Assembly (NCBI GenBank): GCA_949152475.1 | Contig: OX424568.1 | Coordinates: forward strand, 4,501,667-4,565,666 | From: Terebella lapidaria | Lineage: Eukaryota > Annelida > Polychaeta > Terebellida > Terebellidae | DNA: 64,000 nucleotides | Direction of reading: 5' to 3' | Part shown: one piece after another, positions 2,700-52,493 of the stretch | How the letters are laid out: each line of letters begins with the position of its first letter | Position numbering within the stretch: the first letter of the stretch is position 1 | Made by a program: the position numbers and the translations under genes | Notes under the pieces: model-generated | Database searches by the model: none | The model's input: the letters and a program-made list of their open reading frames with translations, nothing else | What the model was told of the DNA's origin: nothing

Positions 2700-4260
<1,561 letters not shown>

Positions 4261-8090: not shown

Positions 8091-8140
8091 ATGGCTCAAG
8101 GACTGACAGGAATACGTTAGGAAAACACCACGGTATTCCG

Positions 8141-9871: not shown

Positions 9872-10134
9872 AAGTATCCTCTTTATTTATATCGGATACC
9901 AAGTGTCAATTACTCATGTATATTCTGTGACCGTCAGTTGCTATCTGCTGGACCGCCGTCGTGTTTGTGGTATGAAAACACCTATCTTAGATGTAATAAC
10001 CAGTGCCTGGAACTTGCCGTTTTTATGTCGTGAGAAGCTTGGAATTATATCCTTGCAAATGAGATTTTGTGACAGTGCTGTTTCTATAACGTGCCTATAA
10101 AACACGCTGATATCGTGTCGTAAATTCGGCTAAC

Positions 10135-10140
10135 AATAAA
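10135..10140 (+). terminator. Candidate poly(A) signal of the GPCR
   Basis: AATAAA lies about 264 bases after the GPCR stop codon and is followed by AT-rich sequence. It is the first canonical signal downstream of the stop. Confidence 0.55.
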
Positions 10141-15600: not shown

Positions 15601-15989
15601 CAAGATCTATTAAACGAAGGAGAGGCCTCATCCATGGCAAAAACCAATGAATATCTACCCCTGGCCATGGAGCCCAGGCCAGAACTGCCATAAGATACAT
15701 CAGTACACCAGGAGGTGGTTCGTATCAAGTCCACATGTCTATTCATATCAAGCCCAATATCCTGAATTAGAAACAATTATTCATGTGGAAATGGACACCT
15801 GATATTCCATATTATGTATATTGCATGTATGCTGGTAAATAGCTGGTGGCTGCAATTTCCTTTTCCATCATACAATCAGAACAAAATGCAAAACTGTGTG
15901 ACCCAGACAATATATCCTGGTAAAATTTGTTGTCAACCAACGTGACAATAAAACACCAATCTAGCGAATCAACTGATGAAGTGTGAACC

Positions 15990-16510
15990 GCAGTGCTGGC
16001 GCTGTTGTGTTATCTAAAACCCTTGGGCAAGGTGTGTATCACGGTATTTTATGTAAGAATCAATCTATTACCACCAAGACAGCCAAATATTGATGATTCC
16101 AATAACAAACGTAAAACACAATATTTTGCAATAGAAACAAAACCCGACCAAATACTTTATCGAAAGACATACTGGCGTCACCAGGGGCAGACAGTGTGGT
16201 AAATGTAGTTGTTGAATCTCGGTTTACTCAGTCGTAAGTGAGTACCCGATTGGCAGCGTTGTTGATCGTATGTGTGCCTAGTTAGCTTGCGCAAAATACA
16301 AGGCGAGTGTGTATGGACTCCTAATGAGTCGAAAAGTGGTGTTCCAGGCCGTAATATTGTGATTTTATTTTTTATACAGAACTTATAGGAGCACTTTATA
16401 TATTAGAACACCCTAAAGCGATAAAAGAATAAATAAATGAGAAACGCTTTCAGCATGCCATGCATGGAAAAGCGCTACATAAAAACCACAATTATTATAA
16501 TAATTATAAT
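15990..16510 (+). mobile_element. tRNA-type SINE remains, interrupted by a retroposon
   Basis: Only unit 1 has this insert. The outer part reads as a molluscan-style SINE: 'acccttgggcaaggtgtgta' near 16018, 'cagtcgtaagtgagtaccc' near 16230, and a tail 'aagcgctacataaaa' followed by an AT-rich run ending near 16510. It is split by the reverse-strand retroposon at 16053-16213. The family was judged from this pattern and no database was searched. Confidence 0.55.
16053..16213 (-). mobile_element. Fixed-3'-end retroposon copy (reverse)
   Basis: The reverse complement runs from 'aacaactacatttaccacac' through 'ctgtctgcccctgg' to 'ggtggtaatagattgattct' and 'tac'. It has the same 3' end as copies at 39311, 46749 and 60919. 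It is truncated at its 5' end and nested in the SINE. Confidence 0.8.
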
Positions 16511-19500
16511 TATTTTACATTTGTGCCGAAATACATGTAATGAAATCATGCAGAACTTCAGTCACCTGAACGATCCCCAGAAGATCAAAATATTCTAAAC
16601 GATCATTCGAGCAGAAGTGATTCGTTTTCAGATCGTCCAATCGTGTATGCTCCATTCAAAGTTCTTTTTCTCGAATGACAGCGTGTGTTACATGTAAATA
16701 TTTTTAAACTGTCTCATAAATTCAAACTAACGGTTTGATCAGTAATCGTTTTAGGATGAAGGATTTTAGGATAACATATGATGGATGTAACCATGTGTGA
16801 TCTCCAGCAGTAGACCTTCAATTGAGGGAATGTTCTTGAAACTAGATCAACGTAATATATACTGATCTTGATATTTTTTACTCGGTCAATGATTCTCCAC
16901 TGAACCTTGCTTCAAACTTGTTGTCAATCATGTTTGGTTATCCAATGTCGAGTGACCTGCACCATGCTGCCATGTACAGCCACCACAATAGAATGTAGAC
17001 CTGTCGATGAGCACTGTATCTTCCCAGTTGAATGGAACAATGAACCGCTTTCAAATATTAGGCCAGTCGATCTCTGAGTGGTGCAGACAGAGAAACCACA
17101 CACATGAAATCGATTGACGCAGGGGAAAGACTCTCCAGGAATGATATAGCAGTTCTCTGTTGGCACTTGTGGTGACCTGAATACACGATACCGTACAAAA
17201 AAAAGCTAGTGGCATATTCCGGACATTTAGTCTAGTTACTTGCATGGGGTGTTTGATTTCCGCAGTCTATCATGCAAAAAGTGTACTTTCGATAACCGTG
17301 TGCCACTCTAGCGGAAAGGTTTAAATCAACAGATAATACTACCACTGAATATGTGTGAGATAATACACTGATACAGGAGGAGTGATATCAATGTCTGTTC
17401 GATGCATGACCGTGAACAGATGATGATATCACTTCAAGTGCCATCAGTGACACAGTGTTTTATCTCCCATAAATCCCGAGATCATGATAGCAAATTTACA
17501 AGTGATATCAACGTCGATTAGGTAAGATATCACACCCCCAGATGTGTATGGAAAAATAATGTTTTTTGCGAACTGAACCAACACTAGGTGTTGTCGGGAT
17601 CATAGAATATGCAAGACTGTGTTAGCTGTTAACTATTGTCACACATTTATTACGACGGCAGTCCCAGTGGATATGCAAATAATTCATACGTCTCAGTTTA
17701 CCTGGATAACATATTGATTACAGTGCCACGCTTTTGCAGCTGTTTTCACAAAACCTGCCATCAGCAATACAGTGAAGGAAGTGTAGTGCTTCCTTCTTTT
17801 CGATCCTCAAGATTCTAGATGGAATTTCGCGTATGATATAGATAACTAGTTATGTCTCTAGATGTGGATCCATTGTGTGAGGATTCCACCACCAGGTATA
17901 TGTAATGTGGGAAAGTAGAGGGAAAACAACACCAACCAATACATGTATGTAGGACATGCACATGTTCTCTGTTTTTCAGATATTTTTGCCATGTTGGTGG
18001 AGCTGAAAATTAACAACAGCTGTCAACAATCACAAGCAGCCTCATTACTTATTACCAAGATTGACACACTCTATATTAAAAAAGTAGAAATGGATAATAG
18101 TACTGACAGACAAATTCATATTCCAAGACAGAATCCATAGACGAATTATACCAACCACTACATCCCCGTCCCCGTGAGTAACAGGACACCTTTTCATAGG
18201 CGACGTCTCAGCCCTTGTGGAATCGTTATTGCGACATTCCATAATTTGTAAGTAGAATGAGAATAGAACAGTATGTGTCTGGAATGCTTAGGTGGTACTT
18301 AATTGGTAGTCATGGTTAATTGGCTCATGGACGGAACATTTTTGTTTGCAAAATCTGAATATTTCCGTTCATTCTTGGGATATGTTCGATTTTGTGACAA
18401 ATATCAGTTTTTGAAGCTCATCAACCATTATGATTCGTATTCATGATGTCACAAATGAATATTACCTCAGGTGCATTCTAACTCATATTCTGATTTTCCC
18501 GTGATATCAGTTCTAACACAGAATGAAAATAGAATTCAATGAATTCATTTTAGTCCACATGTCTAATTACACATGGCTCATGTGCACACATTTGGAAAAA
18601 AAAAGTGTTCAGTCATCCTCACATCCACACACTTAGCAAAACCAGCAGTGCAGACAATAAGCGTGGGGAGTTGTTGTCGTGTATCCTGCTAACGATTTCA
18701 TTAGGATGGCCAAGGCAACTATCCTTTTTAGTTTTTTCGTCATGTGCTAATTGACTTGACGTTTGACATTTCTGTGACATTTTGTGCTGAACATTCGTGG
18801 CAAGAGGTGAATGGCTGTAACAGAAATGTTCGTAGATATATCATACCACTCCCAAAAGCAAATAAGAGTGTTATACTTTATATACAAACAATCACTGATG
18901 ATACGACAGGCCCTACTTCTATGCAGTTTTCATTATATATAACTCCTCACATGCACTCTTGTGATATGTATAGGTTTCATTGCTCTCAAGATGTTGGTTT
19001 TCGTTTCGTGGCCATTTGGATTTTGCGTTAGGTCGGTAAAACACATTTGGGTATACCAGTATGTTTTGAGTCGTATTCAACAAAAAAAAACCATTACCTA
19101 TATTTTTGCATTGAGAGACTTTGGGCATAATGTTTTAGCCACATTTTTTTTATAACAAGTACTGTCCACTGGGACATAAAGCTTAGATATTAAGCATATC
19201 AACTTGGGTATTAATCTTTACCATTTTACTTTAAACGAAACGATAATACCAGGCATTCGAGCCTTTTGGTTATTTTGTTTCTGTTAACTTGTATATGAAA
19301 ATCAATACGCGTTCCAACCATGGCAAAGCATATCAGCTGCTGGCTGTCATTTGAAGGAGGTCATCACGATCTGTGGGTTTACACAACTAAATATAGGTTT
19401 TTGCATGAGAACTTATTTACCGATTAAAATTCATCCATTCAAAATTCGTTCAATTGACATTGGTTTTGTGTTACGCAGGATGTGTCATCATAAACATTAT

Positions 19501-20156
19501 ATTACGTGAATTTGTAAATAATAAGCAACCGTAGGTCCACTTTCCATTAGACAATTGCATTACTATTCAATGTATTTATTGGATATTATTTTCTCAGTAC
19601 GTTATTCACACAATGTATATATTTGTTCAGCTAAATCCTAAAAGCGTATTCCACTTTAAATATTTATGTACATGTTCATTCCCGGGGTGGATCACGTGGT
19701 GTCGTCAAACAGATGGTGGGTCCATAATTATGACACTGATACTGACTGAATTTTACCTGAATGTCATCACGACATTTGGCTGGTGTCTGTCAGTGTCAGA
19801 TGACAGTCAAGATGGACACGAAAGAGGAAACAACATTTCCAACAAACAACACCTCAGAATTCTGGTCGATGAGGAACTGATGGTACTTGCTGACAACAAA
19901 CACAATGTGAACTGTTCTAAGGTATATGAGAACATATTTCACGAAATGTACCTTTAAACAATAAGAAGACTCGTATCATCACTTGATCAATAATTATTAA
20001 TCCTTTCATCTTAACGACAAAACCACATAGTAATAAGACACACCCCATGTAACATCAGTATAACACCAATATATCTCAATATAAACAAGAACACGTGTTT
20101 ATGTTGGTACTCCGACAACTCGTCTGTTTCCATACCATGATTTATTCATTCGTTTT

Positions 20157-20748
20157 ATCTGCGAAACAGGCAGATTTGAAAATTTTAAAGACATGGATAC
20201 TAATAAATACAGGAAATTGTTACCAATAGAAAGAATTTGTAAAATCTAAATCTGAAAATATTGAGGATGAATTTCATTTTCTTTTTGAATGCCCAGTTTA
20301 TGAGAAAGTTTTTTTGACAAATGTTACTAAGTAGTGATGCATGTATGATATTGTAATGAACATCAACTGGAAATCGTGCTTGAATTTTACTGCACATATA
20401 TGGGAAATCCGGAAAAGAATGGTGTATATGTTGATGTATACGTCTATGTAGCTATATATTATACGTGCTATATATTCCACGTCTATGTAGCTATATATTA
20501 AGTAACTCCAGCATAGTCTCAGTATACGGTCATCAAACTCTCAAATAGTTTGACTGCTACCATTTTTCTTTTGTATTGTTACATGTATACTTTACATCTA
20601 CACCGGCCACCTGTAAATACATTCGTGTTCAGTCACTTGTAAGCCCGTGAGGGCTGGGTATACTATTTATGATGTTTTCTATTTACTGTCAGGAATTCCC
20701 GATGTACATGTGACTCAAATAAATAATTTTTCATTCATTCATTCATAC
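20157..20748 (+). mobile_element. LINE 3' end in unit 1
   Basis: This is a 5'-truncated non-LTR retrotransposon. It encodes the C-terminal end of ORF2: YRKLLPIERICK, then, shifted by one base, ENIEDEFHFLFECPVYEK. The EDE-HFLF-CP-Y pattern is characteristic of many LINE ORF2 tails. A 3' UTR with 'cccgtgagggctgggtat' and a (cattcatt) tail at 20731-20746 follow. Copies sit at the same place in units 2-4. Unit 1 alone has an extra stretch of about 58 bp of 'gtctatgtagctatatatta' repeats. Confidence 0.85.
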
Positions 20749-20776
20749 ACGCTTTAGCTTCTGATTTCACACAAAA

Positions 20777-21000
20777 ATGGTTGAACGATGTCAATACAAA
20801 GCGTGTGGATCAGATTCACGATATACAGGTCGTTTAGATAACACTAGAGCTTTTGCGCCATTTCCAAAGCCGAAGGGATACCCGGAGAAATGTCTGAGGG
20901 TGGATTCAGGCATGTGGCAAGTCAGAACTCGAAGGGAAGACTCCATCATTAGCAGAGACCAATCTCTACCCCTGGCCATGGAGCCCAGGCCAGAATTGTA
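20777..21000 (+). pseudogene. THAP-type zinc-finger exon, unit 1
   Basis: The frame opens MVERCQYKACGSDSRY and continues to FPKPKGYPEKCLR, which matches the start of a widespread invertebrate THAP-like domain (C-x4-C, SDSRY, PFPKPK, EKCLRW). After CLR one extra G shifts the frame. In the other frame WIQACGKSELE continues the family pattern. The remaining Cys/His of the C2CH finger is not found downstream. The same lesion occurs in units 2-4, so it is older than the amplification. I infer a dead exon of a THAP gene or a THAP-bearing DNA transposon. Confidence 0.6.
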
Positions 21001-22241
21001 TCAAGATACATCAGTACGTCAATGCTCCAATCAACAGAATCAAATGATGTGCATGTTTTAGGTGTACTATCAAGCGTGATTTGGGGAAAAGGTAGAGCAT
21101 CCGGAAATTAACCCCAAAGGAGTGTCGAGTATATTCTTATCAAGTCCAATATCACGAAAGAGAAACAATTATTCATTAGGAAATAGATAATTTATATCCC
21201 ATTTTTTGCACATTGCAAATGTGCTGATAAACAGCTGGCGGCTGCAATTTCCTGGCCCACCATACAATCAAAAATTATGCAAAACTGTGTAAATGAGCAT
21301 GAAACGCTAATATAGCGGGGCAACTGCTGAATGTCTGCCAGCATTTTGTAATGAAGATTTCACATTTGTGCTACAACTCATGTCATGAAATCATATAGAA
21401 CTGCAATCATTCCAACGATCCCCAGAAGATCAAAACATTCTGAACGATCACTCGAACAGAAGTGATTCATTTTCAGATCATCCGATCGTGTATGCTCTAT
21501 TAAAAGTCATTTTTGCTCGAATGACAGGGAGCGTTAAAGATTTTAAGACTGTCTTATAAATTCAAACTAATGGTTTGATAATAATCGTTTTACGATTTTA
21601 GGATGAACGATTTCACGATAAATGATGATGAACATAACCAAGTGTGATCTCTAGCAGTAGGAATATATATTTTATACATGTTTGTGTTGCAAACTATTTC
21701 TTGAAAGTACCCACCATGGTGTTTACACATTCCATAGATAGGTCCACGTAATGTAGTGGTATTGATATTTTTATTCGGTCAATGATTCTCTATTGAACCT
21801 TGCTTCAAACTTGTTGTAAATCATGTTTGGTTGTGCAATGTCCAGTGACCTGCACCATGCTGCCATGTATCGCCACCACAATAGAAAGTACCGTACGCCT
21901 GTCGAGGAGCACTGTATCTTACCCGTTAAATGGAACAATGAACCGCTTTCAAATATTAGGTCAGTCGATCTCTGAGTGGTGCAGAGAGTGGAAAGATATA
22001 GCAGTTCTCTGTTGTCACTTGTGGGGACCTGAATACACGATACCGTATATACCTAAAAACAGGTGGCATATTCTGGACATTTAGTGTAGTTACTTGAATG
22101 TAGTGTTTGATTTCCGCAGTCTATCATGCAAAAAGTGTACTTTCGATAACCGTGTGCCACTCTAGCGAAAAAGTTTAAATCAATGATAAATATTGATACT
22201 GCCACTGAATATGTGTGAGATAATACACTGATACAGGAGGA

Positions 22242-22292
22242 GTGATATCACTGTCTGTTCGATGCATAGCCGTGAACAGATGATGATATCAC
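22242..22292. repeat. GATATCAC hairpin (unit 2 example)
   Basis: The left arm gtgatatcactgtctgttc (22242-22260) pairs with gaacagatgatgatatcac (22274-22292), with two or three mismatches and a 13-base loop. Two further gatatc sites follow within 120 bases. It recurs in every unit. Confidence 0.7.
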
Positions 22293-25012
22293 TTCAAGTG
22301 CCATCAGTGACACAGTGTTTTATCTTCCATAAATCCCGAGATCATGATAGCAAATTAACTAGTGATATCGACGTCGTTTAGATCAGATATCACACCCCCT
22401 AGATGTGTATAGAAACATAATGTTGTTTTGCGAACTGAACCAACACTAGGTGTTGTCGGGATCATAGAATATGCAAGACTGTGTTAGCTGTTAACTATTT
22501 TCACACATTTATTACGACGGCAGTCCCAGTGGATATGCAAATAATTCATACGTCTCAGTTTATCTGGATAACATATTGATTACAGTGCCACGCTTTTGCA
22601 GCTGTTTTCACAAAACCTGCCATCAGCAATACAGTGAAGGGAGTGTAGTGCTTCCTTCTTTTCGATCCTCAAGATTCTAGGTGGAATTTCGCGTAGATAA
22701 CTAGTTATGTCTCAGTGGATGTGGATCCATTGTGTGAGGATTCCACCACCAGGGATATGTAATGTGGGAAAGTAGAGGGAAAACAACACCAACCAATACA
22801 TGTATGTAGGACATGCACATGTTCTCTGTTTTTCAGATATTTTTGCCATGTCGGTGGAGCTGAAAATTAACAACAGCTGTCAACAATCACAAGCAGCCTC
22901 ATTACTTATTACCAAGATTGACACACTCTATATTAAAAAAGTAGAAATGGATAATAGTACTGACAGACAAATTCATATTCCAAGACAGAATCCATAGACG
23001 AATTATACCAACCACTACATCCCCGTCCCCGTGAGTAACAGGAGACCTTTTCCTAGGCGACGTCTCAGCCCTTGTGGAATCGTTATTGCGACATTCCATA
23101 ATTTGTAAGTAGAATGAGAATAGAACAGTATGTGTCTGGAATGCTTAGGTGGTACTTAATTGGTAGTCATGGTTAATTGGCTCATGGACGGAACATTTTT
23201 GTTTGCAAAATCTGAATATTTCCGTTCATTCTTGGGATATGTTCGATTTTGTGACAAATATCAGTTTTTGAAGCTCATCAACCATTATGATTCCTATTCA
23301 TGATGTCACAAATGAATATTACCTCAGGTGCATTCTAACTCATATTCTGATTTTCCCGTGATATCAGTTCTAACACAGAATGAAAATAGAATTCAATGAA
23401 TTCATTTTAGTCCACATGTCTAATTACACATGGCTCATGTGCACACATTTGGAAAAAAAAGTGTTCAGTCATCCTCACATCCACACACTTAGCAAAACCA
23501 GCAGTGCAGACAATAAGCGTGGGGAGTTGTCGTCGTGTATCCTGCTAACGATTTCATTAGGATGGCCAAGGCAACTATCCTTTTTAGTTTTTTCGTCATG
23601 TGCTAATTGACTTGACGTTTGACATTTCTGTGACATTTTGTGCTGAACATTCGTGGCAAGAGGTGAATGGCTGTAACAGAAATGTTCGTAGATATATCAT
23701 ACCACTCCCAAAAGCAAATAAGAGTGTTATACTTTATATACAAACAATCACTGATGATACGACAGGCCCTACTTCTATGCAGTTTTCATTATATATAACT
23801 CCTCACATGCACTCTTGTGATATGTATAGGTTTCATTGCTCTCAAGATGTTGGTTTTCGTTTCGTGGCCATTTGGATTTTGCGTTAGGTCGGTAAAACAC
23901 ATTTGGGTATACCGGTATGTTTTGAGTCGTATTCAACAAAAAAAAACCATTACCTATATTTTTGCATTGAGAGACTTTGGGCATAATGTTTTAGCCACAT
24001 TTTCTTTTATAACAAGTACTGTCCACTGGGACATAAAGCTTAGATATTAAGCATATCAACTTGGGTATTAATCTTTACCATTTTACTTTAAACGAAACGA
24101 TAATACCAGGCATTCGAGCCTTTTGGTTATTTTGTTTCTGTTAACTTGTATATGAAAATCAATACGCGTTCCAACCATGGCAAAGCATATCAGCTGCTGG
24201 CTGTCATTTGAAGGAGGTCATCACGATCTGTGGGTTTACACAACTAAATATAGGTTTTTGCATGAGAACTAATTTACCGATTAAAATTCATCCATTCAAA
24301 ATTCGTTCAATTGACATTGGTTTTGTGTTATGCAGGATGTGTCATCATAAACATTATATTACGTGAATTTGTAAATAATAAGCAACCGTAGGTCCACTTT
24401 CCATTAGACAATTGCATTACTATTCAATGTATTTATTGGATATTATTTTCTCAGTACGTTATTCACACAATGTATATATTTGTTCAGCTAAATCCTAAAA
24501 GCGTATTCCACTTTAAATATTTATGTACATGTTCATTCCCGGGGTGGATCACGTGGTGTCGTCAAACAGATGGTGGGTCCTTAATTATGACACTGATACT
24601 GACTGAATTTTACCTGAATGTCTTCACGACATTTGGCTGGTGTCTGTCAGTGTCAGATGACAGTCAAGATGGACACGAAAGAGGAAACAACATTTCCAAC
24701 AAACAACACCTCAGAATTCTGGTCGATGAGGAACTGATGGTACTTGCTGACAACAAACACAATGTGAACTGTTCTAAGGTATATGAGAACATATTTCACG
24801 AAATGTACCTTTAAACAATAAGAAGACTCGTATCATCACTTGATCAATAATTATTAATCCTTTCATCTTAACGACAAAACCACATAGTAATAAGACACAC
24901 CCCATGTAACATCAGTATAACACCAATATATCTCAATATAAACAAGAACACGTGTTTATGTTGGTACTCCGACAACTCGTCTGTTTCCATACCATGATTT
25001 ATTCATTCGTTT

Positions 25013-25556
25013 TATCTGCGAAACAGGCAGATTTGAAAATATTAAAGACATGGATACTAATAAATACAGGAAATTGTTACCAATAGAAAGAATTTGTAAA
25101 ATCTAAATCTGAAAATATTGAGGATGAATTTCATTTTCTTTTTGAATGCCCAGTTTATGAGAAACTAAGGAGAAGTTTTTTTGACAAATGTTACTAAGTA
25201 GTGATGCATGTATGATATTGTAATGAACATCAACTGGAAATCGTGCTTGAATTTTACTGCACATATATGGGAAATCCGGAAAAGAATGGTGTATATGTAG
25301 CTATATATTAAGTAACTCCAGCATAGTCTCAGTATACGGTCATCAAACTCTCAAATAGTTTGACTGCTACCATTTTTCTTTTGTATTGTTACATGTATAC
25401 TTTACATCTACACCGGCCACCTGTAAATACATTCGTGTTCAGTCACTTGTAAGCCCGTGAGGGCTGGGTATACTATGTATGATGTTTTCTATTTACTGTC
25501 AGGAATTCCCGATGTACATGTGACTCAAATAAATAATTTTTCATTCATTCATTCAT
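25013..25556 (+). mobile_element. LINE 3' end in unit 2
   Basis: This is the same insertion as in unit 1, without the 58-bp internal expansion and with the segment 'aaactaaggagaag' retained. Confidence 0.85.
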
Positions 25557-25586
25557 ACACGCTTTAGCTTCTGATTTCACACAAAA

Positions 25587-25810
25587 ATGGTTGAACGATG
25601 TCAATACAAAGCGTGTGGATCAGATTCACGATATACAGGTCGTTTAGATAACACTAGAGCTTTGGCGCCATTTCCAAAGCCGAAGGGATACCCGGAGAAA
25701 TGTCTGAGGGTGGATTCAGGCATGTGGCAAGTCAGAACTCGAAGGGAAGACTCCATCATTAGCAGAGACCAATCTCTACCCCTGGCCATGGAGCCCAGGC
25801 CAGAATTGTA
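25587..25810 (+). pseudogene. THAP-type exon, unit 2
   Basis: This is a near-identical copy of the unit 1 exon with the same single-base shift after CLR. Confidence 0.6.
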
Positions 25811-28800
25811 TCAAGATACATCAGTACGTCAATGCTCCAATCAACAGAATCAAATGATGTGCATGTTTTAGGTGTACTATCAAGCGTGATATGGGGAAAA
25901 GGTAGAGCATCCGGAAATTAACCCCAAAGGAGTGTCGAGTATATTCTTATCAAGTCCAATATCACGAAAGAGAAACAATTATTCATTAGGAAATAGATAA
26001 TTTATATCCCATTTTTTGCACATTGCAAATGTGCTGATAAACAGCTGGCGGCTGCAATTTCCTGGCCCACCATACAATCAAAAATTATGCAAAACTGTGT
26101 AAATGAGCATGAAACGCTAATATAGCGGGGCAACTGCTGAATGTCTGCCAGCATTTTGTAATGAAGATTTCACATTTGTGCTACAACTCATGTCATGAAA
26201 TCATATAGAACTGCAATCATTCCAACGATCCCCAGAAGATCAAAACATTCTGAACGATCACTCGAACAGAAGTGATTCATTTTCAGATCATCCGATCGTG
26301 TATGCTCTATTAAAAGTCATTTTTGCTTGAATGACAGGGAGCGTTAAAGATGTTAAGACTGTCTTATAAATTCAAACTAATGGTTTGATAATAATCGTTT
26401 TACGATTTTAGGATGAATGATTTCACGATAAATGATGATGAACATAACCAAGTGTGATCTCTAGCAGTAGGAATATATATTTTATACATGTTTGTGTTGC
26501 AAACTATTTCTTGAAAGTACCCACCATGGTGTTTACACATTCCATAGATAGGTCCACGTAATGTAGTGGTATTGATATTTTTATTCGGTCAATGATTCTC
26601 TATTGAACCTTGCTTCAAACTTGTTGTAAATCATGTTTGGTTGTGCAATGTCCAGTGACCTGCACCATGCTGCCATGTATCGCCACCACAATAGAAAGTA
26701 CCGTACGCCTGTCGAGGAGCACTGTATCTTACCCGTTGAATGGAACAATGAACCGCTTTCAAATATTAGGTCAGTCGATCTCTGAGTGGTGCAGACAGTC
26801 CAAACCACACACATGAAATCGATTGAAGCTGTGGAAAGACTCTCCAGGAATGATATAGCAGTTCTCTGTTGTCACTTGTGGGGACCTGAATACACGATAC
26901 CGTATATACCTAAAAACAGGTGGCATATTCTGGACATTTAGTCTAGTTACTTGAATGTAGTGTTTGATTTCCGCAGTCTATCATGCAAAAAGTGTACTTT
27001 CGATAACCGTGTGCCACTCTAGCGAAAAAGTTTAAATCAATGGAAAATATTGATACTGCCACTGAATATGTGTGAGATAATACACTGATACAGGAGGAGT
27101 GATATCACTGTCTGTTCGATGCATAGCCGTGAACAGATGATGATATCACTTCAAGTGCCATCAGTGACACAGTGTTTTATCTTCCATAAATCCCGAGATC
27201 ATGATAACAAATTAACTAGTGATATCGACGTCGTTTAGATCAGATATCACACCCCCTAGAAGTGTATAGAAACATAATGTTGTTTTGCGAACTGAACCAA
27301 CACTAGGTGTTGTCGGGATCATAGAATATGCAAGACTGTGTTAGCTGTTAACTATTTTCACACATTTATTACGACGGCAGTCCCAGTGGATATGCAAATA
27401 ATTCATACGTCTCAGTTTACCTGGATAACATATTGATTACAGTGCCATGCTTTTGCAGCTGTTTTCACAAAACCTGCCATCAGCAATACAGTGAAGGGAG
27501 TGTAGTGCTTCCTTCTTTTCGATCCTCAAGATTCTAGGTGTAATTTCGCGTAGATAACTAGTTATGTCTCAGTGGATGTGGATCCATTGTGTGAGGATTC
27601 CACCACCAGGGATATGTAATGTGGGGAAGTAGAGGGAAAACAACACCAACCAATATATGTATGTAGGACATGCACATGTTCTCTGTTTTTCAGATATTTT
27701 TGCCATGTCAGTGGAGCTGAAAATTAACAACAGCTGTCAACAATCACAAGCAGCCTCATTACTTATTACCAAGATTGACACACTCTATATTAAAAAAGTA
27801 GAAATGGATAATAGTACTGACAGACAAATTCATATTCCAAGACAGAATCCATAGACGAATTATACCAACCACTACATCCCCGTCCCCGTGAGTAACAGGA
27901 CACCTTTTCATAGGCGACGTCTCAGCCCTTGTGGAATCGTTATTGCGACATTCCATAATTTGTAAGTAGAATGAGAATAGAACAGTATGTGTCTGGAATG
28001 CTTAGGTGGTACTTAATTGGTAGTCATGGTTAATTGGCTCATGGACGGAACATTTTTGTTTGCAAAATCTGAATATTTCCGTTCATTCTTGGGATATGTT
28101 CGATTTTGTGACAAATATCAGTTTTTGAAGCTCATCAACCATTATGATTCGTATTCATGATGTCACAAATGAATATTACCTCAGGTGCATTCTAACTCAT
28201 ATTCTGATTTTCCCGTGATATCAGTTCTAACACAGAATGAAAATAGAATTCATATGTATAGGTTTCATTGCTCTCAAGATGTTGGTTTTCGTTTCGTGGC
28301 CATTTGGATTTTGCGTTAGGTCGGTAAAACACATTTGGGTATACCGGTATGTTTTGAGTCGTATTCAACAAAAAAAAACCATTACCTATATTTTTGCATT
28401 GAGAGACTTTGGGCATAATGTTTTAGCCACATTTTCTTTTATAACAAGTACTGTCCACTGGGACATAGAGCTTAGATATTAAGCATATCAACTTGGGTAT
28501 TAATCTTTACCATTTTACTTTAAACGAAACGATAATACCAGGCATTCGAGCCTTTTGGTTATTTTGTTTCTGTTAACTTGTATATGAAAATCAATACGCG
28601 TTCCAACCATGGCAAAGCATATCAGCTGCTGGCTGTCATTTGAAGGAGGTCATCACGATCTGTGGGTTTACACAACTAAATATAGGTTTTTGCATGAGAA
28701 CTAATTTACCGATTAAAATTCATCCATTCAAAATTCGTTCAATTGACATTGGTTTTGTGTTATGCAGGATGTGTCATCATAAACATTATATTACGTGAAT

Positions 28801-30213
28801 TTGTAAATAATAAGCAACCGTAGGTCCACTTTCCATTAGACAATTGCATTACTATTCAATGTATTTATTGGATATTATTTTCTCAGTACGTTATTCACAC
28901 AATGTATATATTTGTTCAGCTAAATCCTAAAAGCGTATTCCACTTTAAATATTTATGTACATGTTCATTCCCGGGGTGGATCACGTGGTGTCGTCAAACA
29001 GATGGTGGGTCCTTAATTATGACACTGATACTGACTGAATTTTACCTGAATGTCTTCACGACATTTGGCTGGTGTCTGTCAGTGTCAGATGACAGTCAAG
29101 ATGGACACGAAAGAGGAAACAACATTTCCAACAAACAACACCTCAGAATTCTGGTCGATGAGGAACTGATGGTACTTGCTGACAACGAACACAATGTGAA
29201 CTGTTCTAAGGTATATGAGAACATATTTCACGAAATGTACCTTTAAACAATAAGAAGACTCGTATCATCACTTGATCAATAATTATTAATCCTTTCATCT
29301 TAACGACAAAACCACATAGTAATAAGACACACCCCATGTAACATCAGTATAACACCAATATATCTCAATATAAACAAGAACACGTGTTTATGTTGGTACT
29401 CCGACAACTCGTCTGTTTCCATACCATGATTTATTCATTCGTTTTATCTGCGAAACAGGCAGATTTGAAAATATTAAAGACATGGATACTAATAAATACA
29501 GGAAATTGTTACCAATAGAAAGAATTTGTAAAATCTAAATCTGAAAATATTGAGGATGAATTTCATTTTCTTTTTGAATGCCCAGTTTATGAGAAACTAA
29601 GGAGAAGTTTTTTTGACAAATGTTACTAAGTAGTGATGCATGTATGATATTGTAATGAACATCAACTGGAAATCGTGCTTGAATTTTACTGCACATATAT
29701 GGGAAATCCGGAAAAGAATGGTGTATATGTAGCTATATATTAAGTAACTCCAGCATAGTCTCAGTATACGGTCATCAAACTCTCAAATAGTTTGACTGCT
29801 ACCATTTTTCTTTTGCATTGTTACATGTATACTTTACATCTACACCGGCCACCTGTAAATACATTCGTGTTCAGTCACTTGTAAGCCCGTGAGGGCTGGG
29901 TATACTATGTATGATGTTTTCTATTTACTGTCAGGAATTCCCGATGTACATGTGACTCAAATAAATAATTTTTCATTCATTCATTCATACACGCTTTAGC
30001 TTCTGATTTCACACAAAAATGGTTGAACGATGTCAATACAAAGCGTGTGGATCAGATTCACGATATACAGGTCGTTTAGATAACACTAGAGCTTTGGCGC
30101 CATTTCCAAAGCCGAAGGGATACCCGGAGAAATGTCTGAGGGTGGATTCAGGCATGTGGCAAGTCAGAACTCGAAGGGAAGACTCCATCATTAGCAGAGA
30201 CCAATCTCTACCC
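25782..30213 (+). repeat. Large tandem array, unit 3 (4432 bp)
   Basis: Nearly identical to unit 2, except for a private deletion of about 423 bp at 28251, where 'aatagaattca' joins directly to 'tatgtataggtttc'. Single-base variants at 27899, 27909 and 28152 match unit 1 and not units 2 or 4. Confidence 0.93.
29443..29988 (+). mobile_element. LINE 3' end in unit 3
   Basis: Same insertion site and structure as in unit 2. Confidence 0.85.
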
Positions 30214-30242
30214 CTGGCCATGGAGCCCAGGCCAGAATTGTA
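30019..30242 (+). pseudogene. THAP-type exon, unit 3
   Basis: This is a near-identical copy with the same shift. Confidence 0.6.
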
Positions 30243-33200
30243 TCAAGATACATCAGTACGTCAATGCTCCAATCAACAGAATCAAATGATGTGCATGTTT
30301 TAGGTGTACTATCAAGCGTGATATGGGGAAAAGGTAGAGCATCCGGAAATTAACCCCAAAGGAGTGTCGAGTATATTCTTATCAAGTCCAATATCACGAA
30401 AGAGAAACAATTATTCATTAGGAAATAGATGATTTATATCCCATTTTTTGCACATTGCAAATGTGCTGATAAACAGCTGGCGGCTGCAATTTCCTGTCCC
30501 ACCATACAATCAAAAATTATGCAAAACTGTGTAAATGAGCATGAAACGCTAATATAGCGGGGCAACTGCTGAATGTCTGCCAGCATTTTGTAATGAAGAT
30601 TTCACATTTGTGCTACAACTCATGTCATGAAATCATATAGAACAGAAGTGATTCATTTTCAGATCATCCGATCGTGTATGCTCTATTAAAAGTCATTTTT
30701 GCTTGAATGACAGGGAGCGTTAAAGATTTTAAGACTGTCTTATAAATTCAAACTAATGGTTTGATAATAATCGTTTTACGATTTTAGGATGAATGATTTC
30801 ACGATAAATGATGATGAACATAACCAAGTGTGATCTCTAGCAGTAGGAATATATATTTTATACATGTTTGTGTTGCAAACTATTTCTTGAAAGTACCCAC
30901 CATGGTGTTTACACATTCCATAGATAGGTCCACGTAATGTAGTGGTATTGATATTTTTATTCGGTCAATGATTCTCTATTGAACCTTGCTTCAAACTTGT
31001 TGTAAATCATGTTTGGTTGTGCAATGTCCAGTGACCTGCACCATGCTGCCATGTATCGCCACCACAATAGAAAGTACCGTACGCCTGTCGAGGAGCACTG
31101 TATCTTACCCGTTGAATGGAACAATGAACCGCTTTCAAATATTAGGTCAGTCGATCTCTGAGTGGTGCAGACAGTCCAAACCACACACATGAAATCGATT
31201 GAAGCTGTGGAAAGACTCTCCAGGAATGATATAGCAGTTCTCTGTTGTCACTTGTGGGGACCTGAATACACGATACCGTATATACCTAAAAACAGGTGGC
31301 ATATTCTGGACATTTAGTCTAGTTACTTGAATGTAGTGTTTGATTTCCGCAGTCTATCATGCAAAAAGTGTACTTTCGATAACCGTGTGCCACTCTAGCG
31401 AAAAAGTTTAAATCAATGGAAAATATTGATACTGCCACTGAATATGTGTGAGATAATACACTGATACAGGAGGAGTGATATCACTGTCTGTTCGATGCAT
31501 AGCCGTGAACAGATGATGATATCACTTCAAGTGCCATCAGTGACACAGTGTTTTATCTCCCATAAATCCCGAGATCATGATAGCAAATTTACAAGTGATA
31601 TCAACGTCGATTAGGTAAGATATCACACCCCCAGATGTGTATGGAAAAATAATGTTTTTTGCGAACTGAACCAACACTAGGTGTTGTCGGGATCATAGAA
31701 TATGCAAGACTGTGTTAGCTGTTAACTATTTTCACACATTTATTACGACGGCAGTCCCAGTGGATATGCAAATAATTCATACGTCTCAGTTTATCTGGAT
31801 AACATATTGATTACAGTGCCATGCTTTTGCAGCTGTTTTCACAAAACCTGCCATCAGCAATACAGTGAAGGGAGTGTAGTGCTTCCTTCTTTTCGATCCT
31901 CAAGATTCTAGGTGTAATTTCGCGTAGATAACTAGTTATGTCTCAGTGGATGTGGATCCATTGTGTGAAGTTTCCATCGCCAGGGATATGTGATGTGGGA
32001 AAGTAGAGGGAAAACAACACCAACCAATACATGTATGTAGGACATGCACATGTTCTCTGTTTTTCAGATATTTTTGCATGTCGGTGAAGCTGAAAATTAA
32101 CAACAGCTGTCAACAATCACAAGCAGCCTCATTACTTATTACCAAGATTGACACACTCCATATTAGAACAGTACAAATGGATAATAGTACTGACAGACAA
32201 ATTCATATTCCAAGACAGAATCCATAGACGAATTATACCAACCACTACATCCCCGTCCCCGTGAGTAACAGGAGACCTTTTCCTAGGCGACGTCTCAGCC
32301 CTTGTGGAATCGTTATTGCGACATTCCATAATTTGTAAGTAGAATGAGAATAGAACAGTATGTGTCTGGAATGCTTAGGTGGTACTTAATTGGTAGTCAT
32401 GGTTAATTGGCTCATGGACGGAACATTTTTGTTTGCAAAATCTGAATATTTCCGTTCATTCTTGGGATATGTTCGATTTTGTGACAAATATCAGTTTTTG
32501 AAGCTCATCAACCATTATGATTCCTATTCATGATGTCACAAATGAATATTACCTCAGGTGCATTCTAACTCATATTCTGATTTTCCCGTGATATCAGTTC
32601 TAACACAGAATGAAAATAGAATTCAATGAATTCATTTTAGTCCACATGTCTAATTACACATGGCTCATGTGCACACATTTGGAAAAAAAAGTGTTCAGTC
32701 ATCCTCACATCCACACACTTAGCAAAACCAGCAGTGCAGACAATAAGCGTGGGGAGTTGTCGTCGTGTATCCTGCTAACGATTTCATTAGGATGGCCAAG
32801 GCAACTATCCTTTTTAGTTTTTTCGTCATGTGCTAATTGACTTGACGTTTGACATTTCTGTGACATTTTGTGCTGAACATTCGTGGCAAGAGGTGAATGG
32901 CTGTAACAGAAATGTTCGTAGATATATCATACCACTCCCAAAAGCAAATAAGAGTGTTATACTTTATATACAAACAATCACTGATGATACGACAGGCCCT
33001 ACTTCTATGCAGTTTTCATTATATATAACTCCTCACATGCACTCTTGTGATATGTATAGGTTTCATTGCTCTCAAGATGTTGGTTTTCGTTTCGTGGCCA
33101 TTTGGATTTTGCGTTAGGTCGGTAAAACACATTTGGGTATACCGGTATGTTTTGAGTCGTATTCAACAAAAAAAAACCATTACCTATATTTTTGCATTGA

Positions 33201-35002
33201 GAGACTTTGGGCATAATGTTTTAGCCACATTTTCTTTTATAACAAGTACTGTCCACTGGGACATAAAGCTTAGATATTAAGCATATCAACTTGGGTATTA
33301 ATCTTTACCATTTTACTTTAAACGAAACGATAATTCGAGCCTTTTGGTTATTTTGTTTCTGTTAACTTGTATATGAAAATCAATACGCGTTCCAACCATG
33401 GCAAAGCATATCAGCTGCTGGCTGTCATTTGAAGGAGGTCATCACGATCTGTGGGTTTACACAACTAAATATAGGTTTTTGCATGAGAACTAATTTACCG
33501 ATTAAAATTCATCCATTCAAAATTCGTTCAATTGACATTGGTTTTGTGTTATGCAGGATGTGTCATCATAAACATTATATTACGTGAATTTGTAAATAAT
33601 AAGCAACCGTAGGTCCACTTTCCATTAGACAATTGCATTACTATTCAATGTATTTATTGGATATTATTTTCTCAGTACGTTATTCACACAATGTATATAT
33701 TTGTTCAGCTAAATCCTAAAAGCGTATTCCACTTTAAATATTTATGTACATGTTCATTCCCGGGGTGGATCACGTGGTGTCGTCAAACAGATGGTGGGTC
33801 CTTAATTATGACACTGATACTGACTGAATTTTACCTGAATGTCTTCACGACATTTGGCTGGTGTCTGTCAGTGTCAGATGACAGTCAAGATGGACACGAA
33901 AGAGGAAACAACATTTCCAACAAACAACACCTCAGAATTCTGGTCGATGAGGAACTGATGGTACTTGCTGACAACAAACACAATGTGAACTGTTCTAAGG
34001 TATATGAGAACATATTTCACGAAATGTACCTTTAAACAATAAGAAGACTCGTATCATCACTTGATCAATAATTATTAATCCTTTCATCTTAACGACAAAA
34101 CCACATAGTAATAAGACACACCCCATGTAACATCAGTATAACACCAATATATCTCAATATAAACAAGAACACGTGTTTATGTTGGTACTCCGACAACTCG
34201 TCTGTTTCCATACCATGATTTATTCATTCGTTTTATCTGCGAAACAGGCAGATTTGAAAATATTAAAGACATGGATACTAATAAATACAGGAAATTGTTA
34301 CCAATAGAAAGAATTTGTAAAATTTAAATCTGAAAATATTGAGGATGAATTTCATTTTCTTTTTGAATGCCCAGTTTATGAGAAACTAAGGAGAAGTTTT
34401 TTTGACAAATGTTACTAAGTAGTGATGCATGTATGATATTGTAATGAACATCAACTGGAAATCGTGCTTGAATTTTACTGCACATATATGGGAAATCCGG
34501 AAAAGAATGGTGTATATGTAGCTATATATTAAGTAACTCCAGCATAGTCTCAGTATACGGTCATCAAACTCTCAAATAGTTTGACTGCTACCATTTTTCT
34601 TTTGTATTGTTACATGTATACTTTACATCTACACCGGCCACCTGTAAATACATTCGTGTTCAGTCACTTGTAAGCCCGTGAGGGCTGGGTATACTATGTA
34701 TGATGTTTTCTATTTACTGTCAGGAATTCCCGATGTACATGTGACTCAAATAAATAATTTTTCATTCATTCATTCATACACGCTTTAGCTTCTGATTTCA
34801 CACAAAAATGGTTGAACGATGTCAATACAAAGCGTGTGGATCAGATTCACGATATACAGGTCGTTTAGATAACACTAGAGCTTTGGCGCCATTTCCAAAG
34901 CCGAAGGGATACCCGGAGAAATGTCTGAGGGTGGATTCAGGCATGTGGCAAGTCAGAACTCGAAGGGAAGACTCCATCATTAGCAGAGACCAATCTCTAC
35001 CC
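30214..35002 (+). repeat. Large tandem array, unit 4 (4789 bp)
   Basis: It has a private deletion of about 54 bp at 30640, where 'catatagaac' joins 'agaagtgattc'. A patch at about 31555-31670 is identical to unit 1 rather than to units 2, 3 and 5. A second patch at about 31970-32180 shares variants with unit 5 ('ggtgaagctg', 'attagaacag'). Confidence 0.93.
34237..34777 (+). mobile_element. LINE 3' end in unit 4
   Basis: Same insertion as in units 1-3. Confidence 0.85.
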
Positions 35003-35031
35003 CTGGCCATGGAGCCCAGGCCAGAATTGTA
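34808..35031 (+). pseudogene. THAP-type exon, unit 4
   Basis: This is a near-identical copy with the same shift. Confidence 0.6.
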
Positions 35032-38000
35032 TCAAGATACATCAGTACGTCAATGCTCCAATCAACAGAATCAAATGATGTGCATGTTTTAGGTGTACTA
35101 TCAAGCGTGATATGGGGAAAAGGTAGAGCATCCGGAAATTAACCCCAAAGGAGTGTCGAGTATATTCTTATCAAGTCCAATATCACGAAAGAGAAACAAT
35201 TATTCATTAGGAAATAGATAATTTATATCCCATTTTTTGCACATTGCAAATGTGCTGATAAACAGCTGGCGGCTGCAATTTCCTGGCCCACCATACAATA
35301 AAAAATTATGCAAAACTGTGTAAATGAGCATGAAACGCTAATATAGCGGGGCAACTGCTGAATGTCTGCCAGCATTTTGTAATGAAGATTTCACATTTGT
35401 GCTACAACTCATGTCATGAAATCATATAGAACTGCAATCATTCCAACGATCCCCAGAAGATCAAAACATTCTGAACGATCACTCGAACAGAAGTGATTCA
35501 TTTTCAGATCATCCGATCGTGTATGCTCTATTAAAAGTCATTTTTGCTTGAATGACAGGGAGCGTTAAAGATTTTAAGACTGTCTTATAAATTCAAACTA
35601 ATGGTTTGATAATAATCGTTTTACGATTTTAGGATGAATGATTTCACGATAAATGATGATGAACATAACCAAGTGTGATCTCTAGCAGTAGGAATATATA
35701 TTTTATCCATGTTTGTGTTGCAAACTATTTCTTGAAAGTACCCACCATGGTGTTTACACATTCCATAGATAGGTCCACGTAATGTAGTGGTATTGATATT
35801 TTTATTCGGTCAATGATTCTCTATTGAACCTTGCTTCAAACTTGTTGTAAATCATGTTTGGTTGTGCAATGTCCAGTGACCTGCACCATGCTGCCATGTA
35901 TCGCCACCACAATAGAAAGTACCGTACGCCTGTCGAGGAGCACTGTATCTTACCCGTTGAATGGAACAATGAACCGCTTTCAAATATTAGGTCAGTCGAT
36001 CTCTGAGTGGTGCAGACAGTCCAAACCACACACATGAAATCGATTGAAGCTGTGGAAAGACTCTCCAGGAATGATATAGCAGTTCTCTGTTGTCACTTGT
36101 GGGGACCTGAATACACGATACCGTATATACCTAAAAACAGGTGGCATATTCTGGACATTTAGTCTAGTTACTTGAATGTAGTGTTTGATTTCCGCAGTCT
36201 ATCATGCAAAAAGTGTACTTTCGATAACCGTGTGCCACTCTAGCGAAAAAGTTTAAATCAATGGAAAATATTGATACTGCCACTGAATATGTGTGAGATA
36301 ATACACTGATACAGGAGGAGTGATATCACTGTCTGTTCGATGCATAGCCGTGAACAGATGATGATATCACTTCAAGTGCCATCAGTGACACAGTGTTTTA
36401 TCTTCCATAAATCCCGAGATCATGATAACAAATTAACTAGTGATATCGACGTCGTTTAGATCAGATATCACACCCCCTAGATGTGTATAGAAACATAATG
36501 TTGTTTTGCGAACTGAACCAACACTAGGTGTTGTCGGGATCATAGAATATGCAAGACTGTGTTAGCTGTTAACTATTGTCACACATTTATTACGACGGCA
36601 GTCCCAGTGGATATGCAAATAATTCATACGTCTCAGTTTACCTGGATAACATATTGATTACAGTGCCATGCTTTTGCAGCTGTTTTCACAAAACCTGCCA
36701 TCAGCAATACAGTGAAGGAAGTGTAGTGCTTCCTTCTTTTCGATCCTCAAGATTCTAGGTGTAATTTCGCGTAGATAACTAGCTATGTCTCTAGATGTGG
36801 ATCCATTGTGTGAGGATTCCACCACCAGGGATATGTAATGTGGGAAAGTAGAGGGAAAACAACACCAACCAATACATGTATGTAGGACATGCACATGTTC
36901 TCTGTTTTTCAGATATTTTTGCCATGTCGGTGAAGCTGAAAATCAACAACAGCTGTCAACAATCACAAGCAGCCTCATTACTTTTACCAAGACCGACACA
37001 CTCCATATTAGAACAGCAGAAATGGATAATAGTACTGACAAACAGACAAATTCATATGACAAAATCCATAGACGAATTATACCAACCGCTACATCCCCGT
37101 CCCCGCGAGTAACAGGAGACCTTTTGATAGGCGACATCTCAGCCATTATGGAATCGTTATTGCGACATTTTAAAATTTATAGGTAGAATGAGGATAGAAC
37201 AGTGTGTCCGAAAGGTGGTAATCGGTAGTCATGGTAATTGTGCTCATGGAGCAAATTCTGAATACTTTCGTTCATTCTCGGGATATATTTGATTCTGTGA
37301 CATTAAACATGGAAACAATACCCAAGTATATAGTATCCGAGTAAACAAAACCACATCCATTATCCAATCTCAAAGTCCGGTGTCAGGCAAAATCGAGAAA
37401 ATTTTATTTATACAAATATCACTGTTTTTTTAACTGTAAATTTAAAGCTCATCAACTATTATGACTTGTATTCATGATGTCACAAAGGATACCTCAGGTG
37501 CCTTTCGCACCTGAAACCAGTTCTTACACAGAATGAAAATAAAATTTAATGAATTCATTTTATTCCACAGGTCGAATTACACATGGTTCATGTGCACACA
37601 TTTGGATAAATAGGTGTCCAATCATTTTCACGTCCACATACTTAGCAAAACCAGCAGTGCAGACAATAAGCGTGGGGGGTAGTCGTGGTGTATCCTGCTA
37701 ACGATTTCATCGGGATGGCCAAGGCAACTATCCTTTTCAGTTTTTTCGTCATGTGCTAATTGACTTGACGTTTGACATTTCTGTGACATTTTGTGCTGCA
37801 CATTCGTGGCAAGAGGTAAATGTCTGTAACAGAAATGTCCGTAGATATACCACACCACTCCCATAAGCAAAAAAGAGTGTTATACTTTATATACAAACAA
37901 TCACTGATGATACGACAGGCCCTACTTCTATGCAGTTTTCATTATATAGAACTCCTCACATGCACTCTTGTGATATGTATAGGTTTCGTTGCTCTCAAAA

Positions 38001-39220
38001 TGTTGGTTTTCGTTTCGTGGCCATTTGGATTTTGCGGTAGGTCGGTAAAACACATTTGGGTATACCGGTATGTTTTGAGTCCTTTCCAACAAAAACAAAC
38101 ATTACCTATATTTTTGCATTGAGAGACTTTGGGCAAAATGTTTTAGCCACTTTTTCTTTTATAATAAGTACTGTACGCTCGGACATAAAGCTTAGATATT
38201 AAGCATATAAACTTGGGTATTAATCTTTACCGTTTTAGTTGAAACGAAACGATAATATCAGGCTTTCTAGCCTCTTGGATATTTTGTTTCTATTAACTTG
38301 TATATGAAAATTAATACGCGTTCCAACATGGCAAAGCATATCAGCTGCTGGCTGTCATTTGAAGGAGATCATCACGATTTGTGGGTTTACACAATTAAAT
38401 ATAGGCTTTTGCATGGCAACTAATTTACCCATTAAAATTCATCCATTCAAAATTCGTTCAATTGACATTGGCTTGGTGCGACGCAGGATTAATCATCATG
38501 AACATTATATTACGTGAAATTGTAAATAATAAGCAACCGTAGGTCCACTTTCCATTAGACAATTGCATTATTATTTAATGTATTTATTAGATATTATTTT
38601 CTCAGTAGGTTATTTGCACAATGTATATATTTGTTCAGCTAAACCCTAACAAAGAGCGTATTCCACTTTAAATATTTATGTACATGTTCATTCCTGGGAT
38701 GAATCACGTGGTGTCGTCAAACAGATGGTGGGTCCATATGACACTGATACTGACTGAATATTACCTGAATGTCATCATGGCATTTGGCTGATGTCTGACA
38801 GTGTCAGATGTGACAGATGACAGTCAAGATGGACACGGGAGAGGAAACAACAATTCCAACAAACAACACCTCAGAATTCTAGTCGATGAGGAACTGATGG
38901 TACATGTTGACAACGAACACAACGTGAACTCTTTTAAGGTATATGATAACATATTTCACGTAATGTACCTTTAAACAATAAGTAGACTTTCGTATCATCA
39001 CTTGATCAATAACTACTCATCCTTTCATCTTAACGACAAAACCACATAGTAGTATGACATACCCCTTTGTAATGTAACATCGGTATAGTACCAATATATA
39101 GCTCAATATAAACATGAACACGTGTTCATGATGGTACTCTGACAAGTTGTCTGTCTCCTTACCATGATTTATGTCTGTTCATTCGTTTCAGACGCTTTAG
39201 CTTCTGATACCACACAAAAA

Positions 39221-39540
39221 TGGTTGAACGATGTCAATAAACAGCATGTAGATCGGATTCACGATATTCAGATCGTTTAGACAACAGTAGAGCTTTTGCG
39301 CCATTTCCAACAACTACGTTTACCACACTGTCTGCCCCTGATGACGCCAGTGTGTTTTTTGATGAAGTGTTTGGTCGGGCTTTGTTTCTATTGCAAAATG
39401 TTGTATTTAACGTTTGTTATTGGAATCATCAAAATTTGGATGTATCGGTGGTAATAGATTGATACTTACATTCCAAAGCCGAAGGGATACCTGGAGAAAG
39501 TCTGAGGTGTGTGGCCAGTCAGAACTCCAGCCGGAACAAA
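39221..39540 (+). pseudogene. THAP-type exon, unit 5, split by a retroposon
   Basis: The frame reads MVERCQ, a stop, then TACRSDSRYSDRLDN up to APFP. There it is interrupted by the 159-bp retroposon and resumes with 'ccaaagccgaagggatacc'. It is more decayed than the other copies. A clean acceptor-like 'cattcgtttcag' lies 33 bases before the ATG. Confidence 0.6.
39311..39469 (+). mobile_element. Fixed-3'-end retroposon in the unit 5 THAP exon
   Basis: Starts 'caactacgtttaccacactg', ends 'gtaatagattgatacttac'. The flanks are atttccaa (39303-39310) and attccaa (39470-39476). Other units give the empty site 'gcgccatttccaaagccg', so this is a target-site duplication of about 7-8 bp. Confidence 0.88.
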
Positions 39541-39639
39541 TTACCAGGCACTACTATGGGTGCTCTTTGGTGACGATAAACAAACATATTTAAGAGTATA
39601 TAGCTAAATGTGAAATTGACTAATTAGGTCCACAGATCT

Positions 39640-40200
39640 GCAGCGATAGCATCGTAAAATCATCGTAAGCTTCGAATTTATACATTTGCGATTTATACAT
39701 TTTACGATGCTTCGTAAAATATTGGTGTACAGAATTAAGGGAGGACTTCCTCTCAAATTCGAATGCAATTTGGTAACGAATTAGTTCCACACACATGAAG
39801 TATGCATTCAGATGACTTCAAAATCGAAGAAATCATATTTTTACAACTACTGCCGAATGTAAAATCAAAGAAACTAAACTTAGCGGGCCACGCAACCGAT
39901 GACGTCATTGTTTTGATGATGCCTCGGGCAACGGAGCAATTGCAGCATCTCTGGTTCCAGTGAAAAGAGCCGCCTGTTGAGGCTTCTGTCAAAACAATGA
40001 CGTCACAAAAATTTACGTCATGTTTGACGTTTCTGTCAGCCATGCACTGCCGTGTTGAAAAAACTTGCAGATTTTCAGTGTTTTTGATGTTATATCCTCC
40101 ATACGATCTGTTTGTACTCAACAAATATATACATAATTCATATGTGAACGAAGCTTAGAGTCTTCTCCATTCGAATGCATTTAAATATATTTGCTATATG
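39640..40200. repeat. Region with CRE-bearing inverted repeat
   Basis: Arms tgacgtcattgttttga (39900-39916) and tcaaaacaatgacgtca (39989-40005) are perfect complements, each holding the palindrome TGACGTCA. A 123-codon minus-strand frame (39753-40124) runs through but shows no known domain. It is possibly a transposon relic. Confidence 0.5.
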
Positions 40201-41040
40201 GAAGTTTTAACCGTAAAATCCTGGGTCGAAGCCAATACACATTGATAGGAAGTCCTCTAAAATAGGCGAATGTGTGCATTTTCCGAGGAGACGTGGGATA
40301 ATGCTGGTGGTTTTTGAACTTGCTGGCCGTTCAGTGGTTGGCCTCGACGATCGATAACCTAAGTATGCCTGGGTCACATTTGCACAGGTCGCCGGCCGAT
40401 GTGGGGACATCCGATCGATGGTATTTGCCGATGTTCCGGCCGCCGGTGATAGTTTGTCAGGCATGTTTCCCATATATTTCGAGTGGTCATGAAACCACCA
40501 GGCATTGTCCGCCGGTGACCGCTATAGTCACCTACGATCGTGTGTCTTCACCATGTCCGTCCTAATTCTAAAAGTTCCAAGAAAGTCCAACCAACGATGC
40601 TTTACCGGAGACCACACGATACCCTACTGGTACCTGCTCGGTGACCGTCTGATATGTACAAATCGGCCGATTTTCTGAAGAGCACCTTCCGGAAATTCTT
40701 CAGCGCCCGGCAGGATACCCTGCGGTGATCACCTGGTGAGCTGCCCACATTGGTAGGCCGAAAAATTTGGTCAATTCCCTCGGCACCTGATGGGCATCTG
40801 AAGGGACGTGCAAGCGATTCACTACCGATATCACTTTTTCCACCGGTCACCGCAAGAAAATAACTCTGCGTTATTTTATTCCGATGCTTCTAACGACGTG
40901 TCTACGATGTCCGATTGTTGCCAGGTGTCACGGTTGATCCTCAGGCGCTCGGTAGGTGACCAGCGGAAATGGCCAAATTTTAGTCCTTTCGGGCATCGTA
41001 TCCTCATCGGCAAAGACATCGGTGCGAATGTGACTTAGGC
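40200..41040. other. GC-rich block, no gene recognised
   Basis: GC content rises clearly between AT-rich flanks. GGTGACC/GGTCACC and CCGG-rich motifs recur (40516, 40639, 40726, 40842, 40953). Overlapping open frames of 76-88 codons occur on both strands without recognisable domains. The origin is unknown; it may be a degenerate repeat or a foreign segment. Confidence 0.4.
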
Positions 41041-52476: not shown

Positions 52477-52493
52477 TATATTAATCATAGTAC

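Follow-up and report, generated by a model that had tools for sequence, protein, structure and literature searches.

A mosaic head-to-tail array in Terebella lapidaria, probably a local duplication enlarged by unequal crossing-over

What has been repeated, and by what means, in a 24-kb stretch of Terebella lapidaria DNA whose long units follow one another head to tail? The stretch lies in a segment of 64,000 nucleotides (contig OX424568.1, positions 4,501,667 to 4,565,666, forward strand), hereafter the window, and a sequence-only reading had described it as a five-unit array with no living gene. Our analysis indicates that the array very probably arose by local tandem segmental duplication of DNA in which no working gene was recognised, followed by enlargement through unequal crossing-over. 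It is a mosaic of two diverged copies, A and B: it opens with an A-head, continues with an A-tail/B-head segment present four times and closes with a B-tail, followed by the remnant of a further copy, C.

Extent and mosaic composition of the array

The marker sequence that had drawn attention to the array was recovered at 15661, 20972, 25782, 30214 and 35003, all five sites (5/5) being exact, on the + strand and with 0 mismatches. No further site was found in the window when up to 3 mismatches were allowed, and none of 100 shuffles reached five occurrences. The marker-to-marker spacings are 5311, 4810, 4432 and 4789 bp. Self-BLAST and a five-unit alignment both gave same-strand copies, confirming units of 4.4-5.3 kb arranged head to tail in one orientation; these adjacent same-strand copies of a long segment are those of a tandem segmental duplication. 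Pairwise identity in the five-unit alignment is 99.2-99.4% among units 2-4, while unit 1 shares 86-91.5% and unit 5 shares 86-95% identity with the other units, values that take in end stretches aligning only by chance; the BLAST alignment of unit 1 starts only at 15650. Beyond unit 5, a truncated sixth copy extends the array (39178-39310 and 39471-39572), wherein 39178-39310 is 88% identical to 20738-20867 and 39471-39527 resumes the copy past a 163-bp insertion. The long unit, the head-to-tail order and the lack of a recognised intact gene thus stood, but the array is not five copies of one unit: it appears to comprise an old A-B pair, a middle A-tail/B-head segment present four times and a sixth remnant.

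This composition emerges from the variable sites, defined as ungapped columns of the five-unit alignment in unit 2 coordinates and counted over 20961-25012, the span in which the alignment of all units is genuine. Across 20961-22230, 159 of the 171 variable sites are private to unit 1, and across 22981-25012, 127 of 137 are private to unit 5; the 41 variable sites between 22230 and 22981 show a mixed pattern. The resulting 2x2 table (159/1/2/127) gives a Fisher p of 1.9e-79, to be read as a yardstick only because the sites are linked. Two sets of sites were excluded from the count: 190 to the left of 20961, a region in which the alignment of unit 1 is due to chance alone, and 49 to the right of 25012, where unit 5 is paired with an insertion or aligns by chance; the split is unchanged when these sites are put back. 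Since the left sites are mostly private to unit 1 and the right sites mostly private to unit 5, units 2-4 carry a unit 5-type head joined to a unit 1-type tail.

Pairwise counts agree with this assignment. The heads of units 2-5 differ at 3-11 of 1,214-1,317 sites and the tails of units 1-4 at 0-9 of 1,605-2,038, compared with 166-177 of 1,108-1,164 sites between A and B heads and 138-167 of 1,556-1,981 between A and B tails; A and B are now ~84-92% identical. Hybrid inner copies therefore lie between diverged outer copies, as recombination would leave them. Read plainly, the site pattern suggests an old A-B pair whose A-tail/B-head segment was amplified.

A dispersed insertion and the probable order of events

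A repeat lies at the A-tail/B-head boundary and matches many contigs (Table 1). Its CATT-repeat end and a peptide motif suggest the 3' end of a non-long-terminal-repeat retrotransposon, and we presume it to be like a long interspersed nuclear element (LINE-like). The tail of unit 5 passes into the sixth head without this sequence, which is likewise missing from both relatives, on contig C5, of a decayed THAP-like exon described below; for these reasons the boundary repeat is regarded as an insertion. Because it is common to the four inner boundaries, it is most likely older than the amplification.

These observations are consistent with the following history. An old duplication would have produced A, B and at least a portion of C in head-to-tail order, and these copies then diverged. 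A dispersed LINE-like element would have inserted at the A-tail/B-head boundary. Misaligned recombination, of A with B and then among copies, would have given four A-tail/B-head segments, and the copies would subsequently have acquired private deletions and point changes and swapped short patches. The mosaic and the insertion-free site can be read directly from the sequence, and from them we infer unequal crossing-over as the means, together with the order of steps. Unequal crossing-over between diverged tandem copies is a general mechanism.

The unit body was found at a single locus. The genome searched comprises 761.6 Mb in 438 contigs, with the window on contig C15, and the search scores only the best candidates. 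A query of 21990-25290 gave 46 matches among the best 40 of 894 candidates, of which 7 long ones are local and 39 fall in two short dispersed query stretches. With 20481-21989, for which all candidates were scored (39/39), matches elsewhere were limited to the LINE-like part and three matches to the THAP-like relic. For both queries, within these scopes, the copies are confined to one locus.

Satellite DNA was considered and rejected. Satellites and macrosatellites also have multi-kilobase units set head to tail; unlike them, the array has five units and a fragment in one place instead of a high copy number, and its body was not found elsewhere among the best 40 of the 894 candidates. It resembles a tandem segmental duplication in its few long head-to-tail units, its single locus and its near-identical hybrid inner units between diverged outer halves. 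We found no departure from that class; the units of this array are without a recognised intact gene.

Two further repeats in the array are dispersed. Within the window, the 163-bp repeat is found at 46999-47163 as well as in unit 1 and the sixth unit, and it has many dispersed genome copies; it also occurs at regular 363-bp spacing in a short array, for example at C17:21924605-21925856. A partly palindromic repeat at ~22204-22412 likewise has dispersed matches.

Coding potential, the THAP-like relic and rival explanations

The sequence-only reading had stated that no long open frame survives in all units, and this was upheld: the longest, of 140 aa, is open in units 1-4 and closed in unit 5. 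First-order Markov shuffling of unit 2 reached that length in 13 of 200 cases, so the longest frame is of chance length. Six-frame translation of 15000-19999 and of unit 2 (20481-25297) gave no Pfam match, and an intact domain-bearing gene in or beside the array was rejected when these scans, together with those of 10100-15099 and 39200-44199, returned nothing above cut-off; across these four stretches there was one sub-cut-off match (E 0.39). An RNA gene array was also rejected: Rfam gave nothing at gathering scores, and the window yielded no tRNA (ARAGORN, bacterial code). A length divisible by three was seen for 4 of 22 gaps between the A and B heads and for 6 of 22 between the tails, showing no bias to threes. 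Selection on the units is not evident. The description of the array as lacking a living gene needs qualifying in one respect: no intact gene was recognised, but the units are not featureless, bearing a decayed THAP-like exon as well as the LINE-like insertion.

Outside the LINE-like part, the 20481-21989 query produced two matches on C5 (80% and 77%; query 266-444) and a short match on C3. The C5 copy at 42948774-42948971 is an open 66-aa stretch that is THAP-like, scoring 19.3 bits against Pfam THAP, below the 23.9 cut-off. Relic peptides of unit 2 gave no Pfam match, and a 42-aa relic peptide gave no solved-structure match. Over 42 residues, units 2-5 share 59.5-61.9% identity with the C5 copy (E 1e-11 to 7e-11); the match of the sixth unit falls into two pieces, with a stop in the first. 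Unit 2 scores 50.8 bits and the two sixth-unit pieces 39.7 and 28.9 bits, compared with a maximum of 26.2 in 100 window shuffles. Every copy has a broken frame: units 2-5 are frameshifted relative to the relatives, and the sixth has a stop codon and is further split by an insertion. Unit 1 has no match at E 1 or better. THAP exons are abundant in this genome, with at least 150 matches (best 150 of 624 candidates).

At the C5 locus (C5:42940001-42950000), segments 4920-5296 and 8581-8952, of ~377 bp, are 93% identical and lie 3.66 kb apart. Both bear the THAP-like exon, open in the second and frameshifted in the first.

Several points weigh against the reading of the array as a single-locus duplication of DNA without a recognised working gene. 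A 15600-16600 query matched elsewhere only in the 163-bp repeat, and it missed the known local copies in units 2-5; an absent match therefore says little for uniqueness. The number of copies is that of the assembly and could be off by one. The ratio of nonsynonymous to synonymous differences is low at 16553-16670 (+, unit 1 versus unit 2; 40 codons, 9 synonymous and 8 nonsynonymous, ratio 0.24) and at 38353-38470 (unit 5 versus unit 2; 5 synonymous and 3 nonsynonymous, ratio 0.14). These are the lowest of 32 and 53 overlapping 40-codon windows passing the filter, and because the counts are small and the windows many, they are not taken as proof. Unit 4 is missing 56 of the 118 bases of the 16553-16670 window, which the other units keep. 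Finally, frames of 73-140 aa are common to several units, for which close similarity alone can account.

These two low-ratio windows, and the relic as a sign that a coding exon was once present here, would fit an array in which a living spliced gene made up of short exons had been amplified in tandem for dose. We consider this improbable: no unit that bears the THAP-like exon has it intact, and unit 1 has no match to it at E 1 or better; Pfam searches of unit 2, 15000-19999 and the relic peptides found no domain; the 56-bp deletion, not a multiple of three, costs unit 4 about half of the best low-ratio window; and gap lengths are unbiased toward multiples of three. A transcript, or a gene of short lineage-specific exons, may lie in the units.

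The relic also has relatives within mobile elements. On C1, C3 and C16, near-identical dispersed elements contain relatives that share 55-56% identity with the C5 copy. The C1 relative (locus L069) carries HTH_Tnp_4 (38.1 bits), DDE_Tnp_4 (141 bits) and YqaJ (54.6 bits) domains, all above cut-off. According to one account, a helix-turn-helix (HTH) and DDE transposase with a THAP domain, plus YqaJ, is the gene set of most autonomous ISL2EU transposons of the PHIS superfamily, which have an AT target duplication and terminal repeats usually beginning GG (PMC4482050). The 75-aa first exon of the C1 relative has no Pfam match and resembles the C5 copy (E 3.4e-18), itself below the THAP cut-off as given above. 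Two copies of the transposon span ~5.8 and 5.1 kb, and both have ATTCATAGTTCCGA / TCGGAACTATGAAT at their ends, compatible with an AT duplication; because these repeats do not begin with the usual GG, the element is termed ISL2EU-like.

The array relic resembles the first exon of this transposon (window match E 1.2e-9), and the transposon copies are near unit length, as might be expected if the unit were an old ISL2EU-like mobile element that arose as a head-to-tail multimer. This origin is very unlikely. The only part of such a transposon found in the array is the THAP-like relic. Protein queries recovered it, but for the DDE part the best window match had an E of just 0.82 and YqaJ gave nothing at E 1; an HTH part was not found either. 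Moreover, the unit body was found at one locus (best 40 of 894 candidates), and the A/B mosaic indicates recombination between copies, not insertion. The array is thus not an ISL2EU element. Comparison of the array with the transposon copies by blastn and tblastx at E 1e-3 gave no match, the relic included, and these searches are therefore insensitive here. The relic itself may derive either from a transposon or from a host gene sharing the domain. A splice-acceptor-like CAG coincides with a weak match to the second exon of the ISL2EU-like transposon (Table 1); this match would be in keeping with a decayed gene that begins at the sixth unit, but 4 of 100 shuffles equal its score.

We give as little credence to retention of the array for a noncoding role, in which each unit would supply a promoter or an RNA (for instance a long noncoding RNA, the precursor of small RNAs or the beginning of a lineage-specific transcript) and repeated unequal exchange would have raised the copy number. 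Least likely of all is an assembly artefact that falsely multiplied the copies, for although units 2-4 are nearly identical, each has a private deletion, the differences of the outer half-units follow a pattern and the window contains no N.

Neighbouring features and meaning of the locus

Table 1. Features of the array, with positions in the window
Feature	Position	Strand	Remarks
Unit 1	15650..20480	+	A-head 15650 to ~17370; first A-tail from ~18124; left part unlike all other units
Unit 2	20481..25290	+	Hybrid, B-head then A-tail; 46-bp deletion at 21989, in no other unit
Unit 3	25291..29722	+	Hybrid, B-head then A-tail; private deletion of ~425 bp at 28251
Unit 4	29723..34511	+	Hybrid, B-head then A-tail; private 56-bp deletion at 30642; mosaic patch in junction zone
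Unit 5	34512..39188	+	B-head then B-tail; tail ~91-92% identical to A-tails
Truncated sixth unit (C-head)	39178..39572	+	Interrupted by 163-bp dispersed repeat at ~39309-39472
Inferred crossover zone	22231..22980 (unit 2 coordinates)	+	Variable-site pattern switches here
LINE-like 3'-end insertion, ~540 bp	25016..25553	+	Dispersed; CATT-repeat end; at A-tail/B-head boundary
Other copies of LINE-like insertion	~20159-20743, 29448-29985, 34237-34774		Placed by offset
163-bp dispersed repeat	16051..16213	.	Within insertion unique to unit 1
Decayed THAP-like exon, unit 2	20746..20930	+	Frame matching relatives stops at 20899; likeness continues in another frame
Same relic, units 3-5	from 25556, 29988, 34777	+	
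Decayed THAP-like exon, sixth unit	39220..39572	+	Stop codon, then 163-bp insertion, then last part of exon
Possible second-exon relic of same THAP-like gene	41324..41362	+	Weak; 4/100 shuffles score as high

Outside the array, the window holds a 600-aa open frame at 8069-9871 (+) with a complete rhodopsin-family receptor domain (Pfam 7tm_1, 86.9 bits, E 2.1e-24). Two adjoining ~814-bp copies at 4145-5771 are 99.6% identical, a very recent tandem duplication, and a 312-aa open frame at 1556-2494 (-) contains the final part of a reverse-transcriptase domain (RVT_1, 28.6 bits, just below the 29.6 cut-off). A Myb/SANT-like DNA-binding domain at 45475-45630 (+; 44.8 bits) lies beside a weak DDE_Tnp_4 fragment at ~45949-46032 (-; 19.8 bits, below cut-off), and the two are perhaps a Harbinger-like element. 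The stretch 45642-47615 recurs piecewise at 50856-52995, and 50131-50702 is a tandem repeat of 206 bp in 2.8 copies.

As an ordinary local duplication, the array adds no new mechanism. It provides a clean example of a diverged tandem pair turning into an array through misaligned recombination, wherein the putative crossover zone is narrowed to ~750 bp and the insertion fixes part of the order of events. The locus may serve as one of possibly variable copy number, or as an assembly check.

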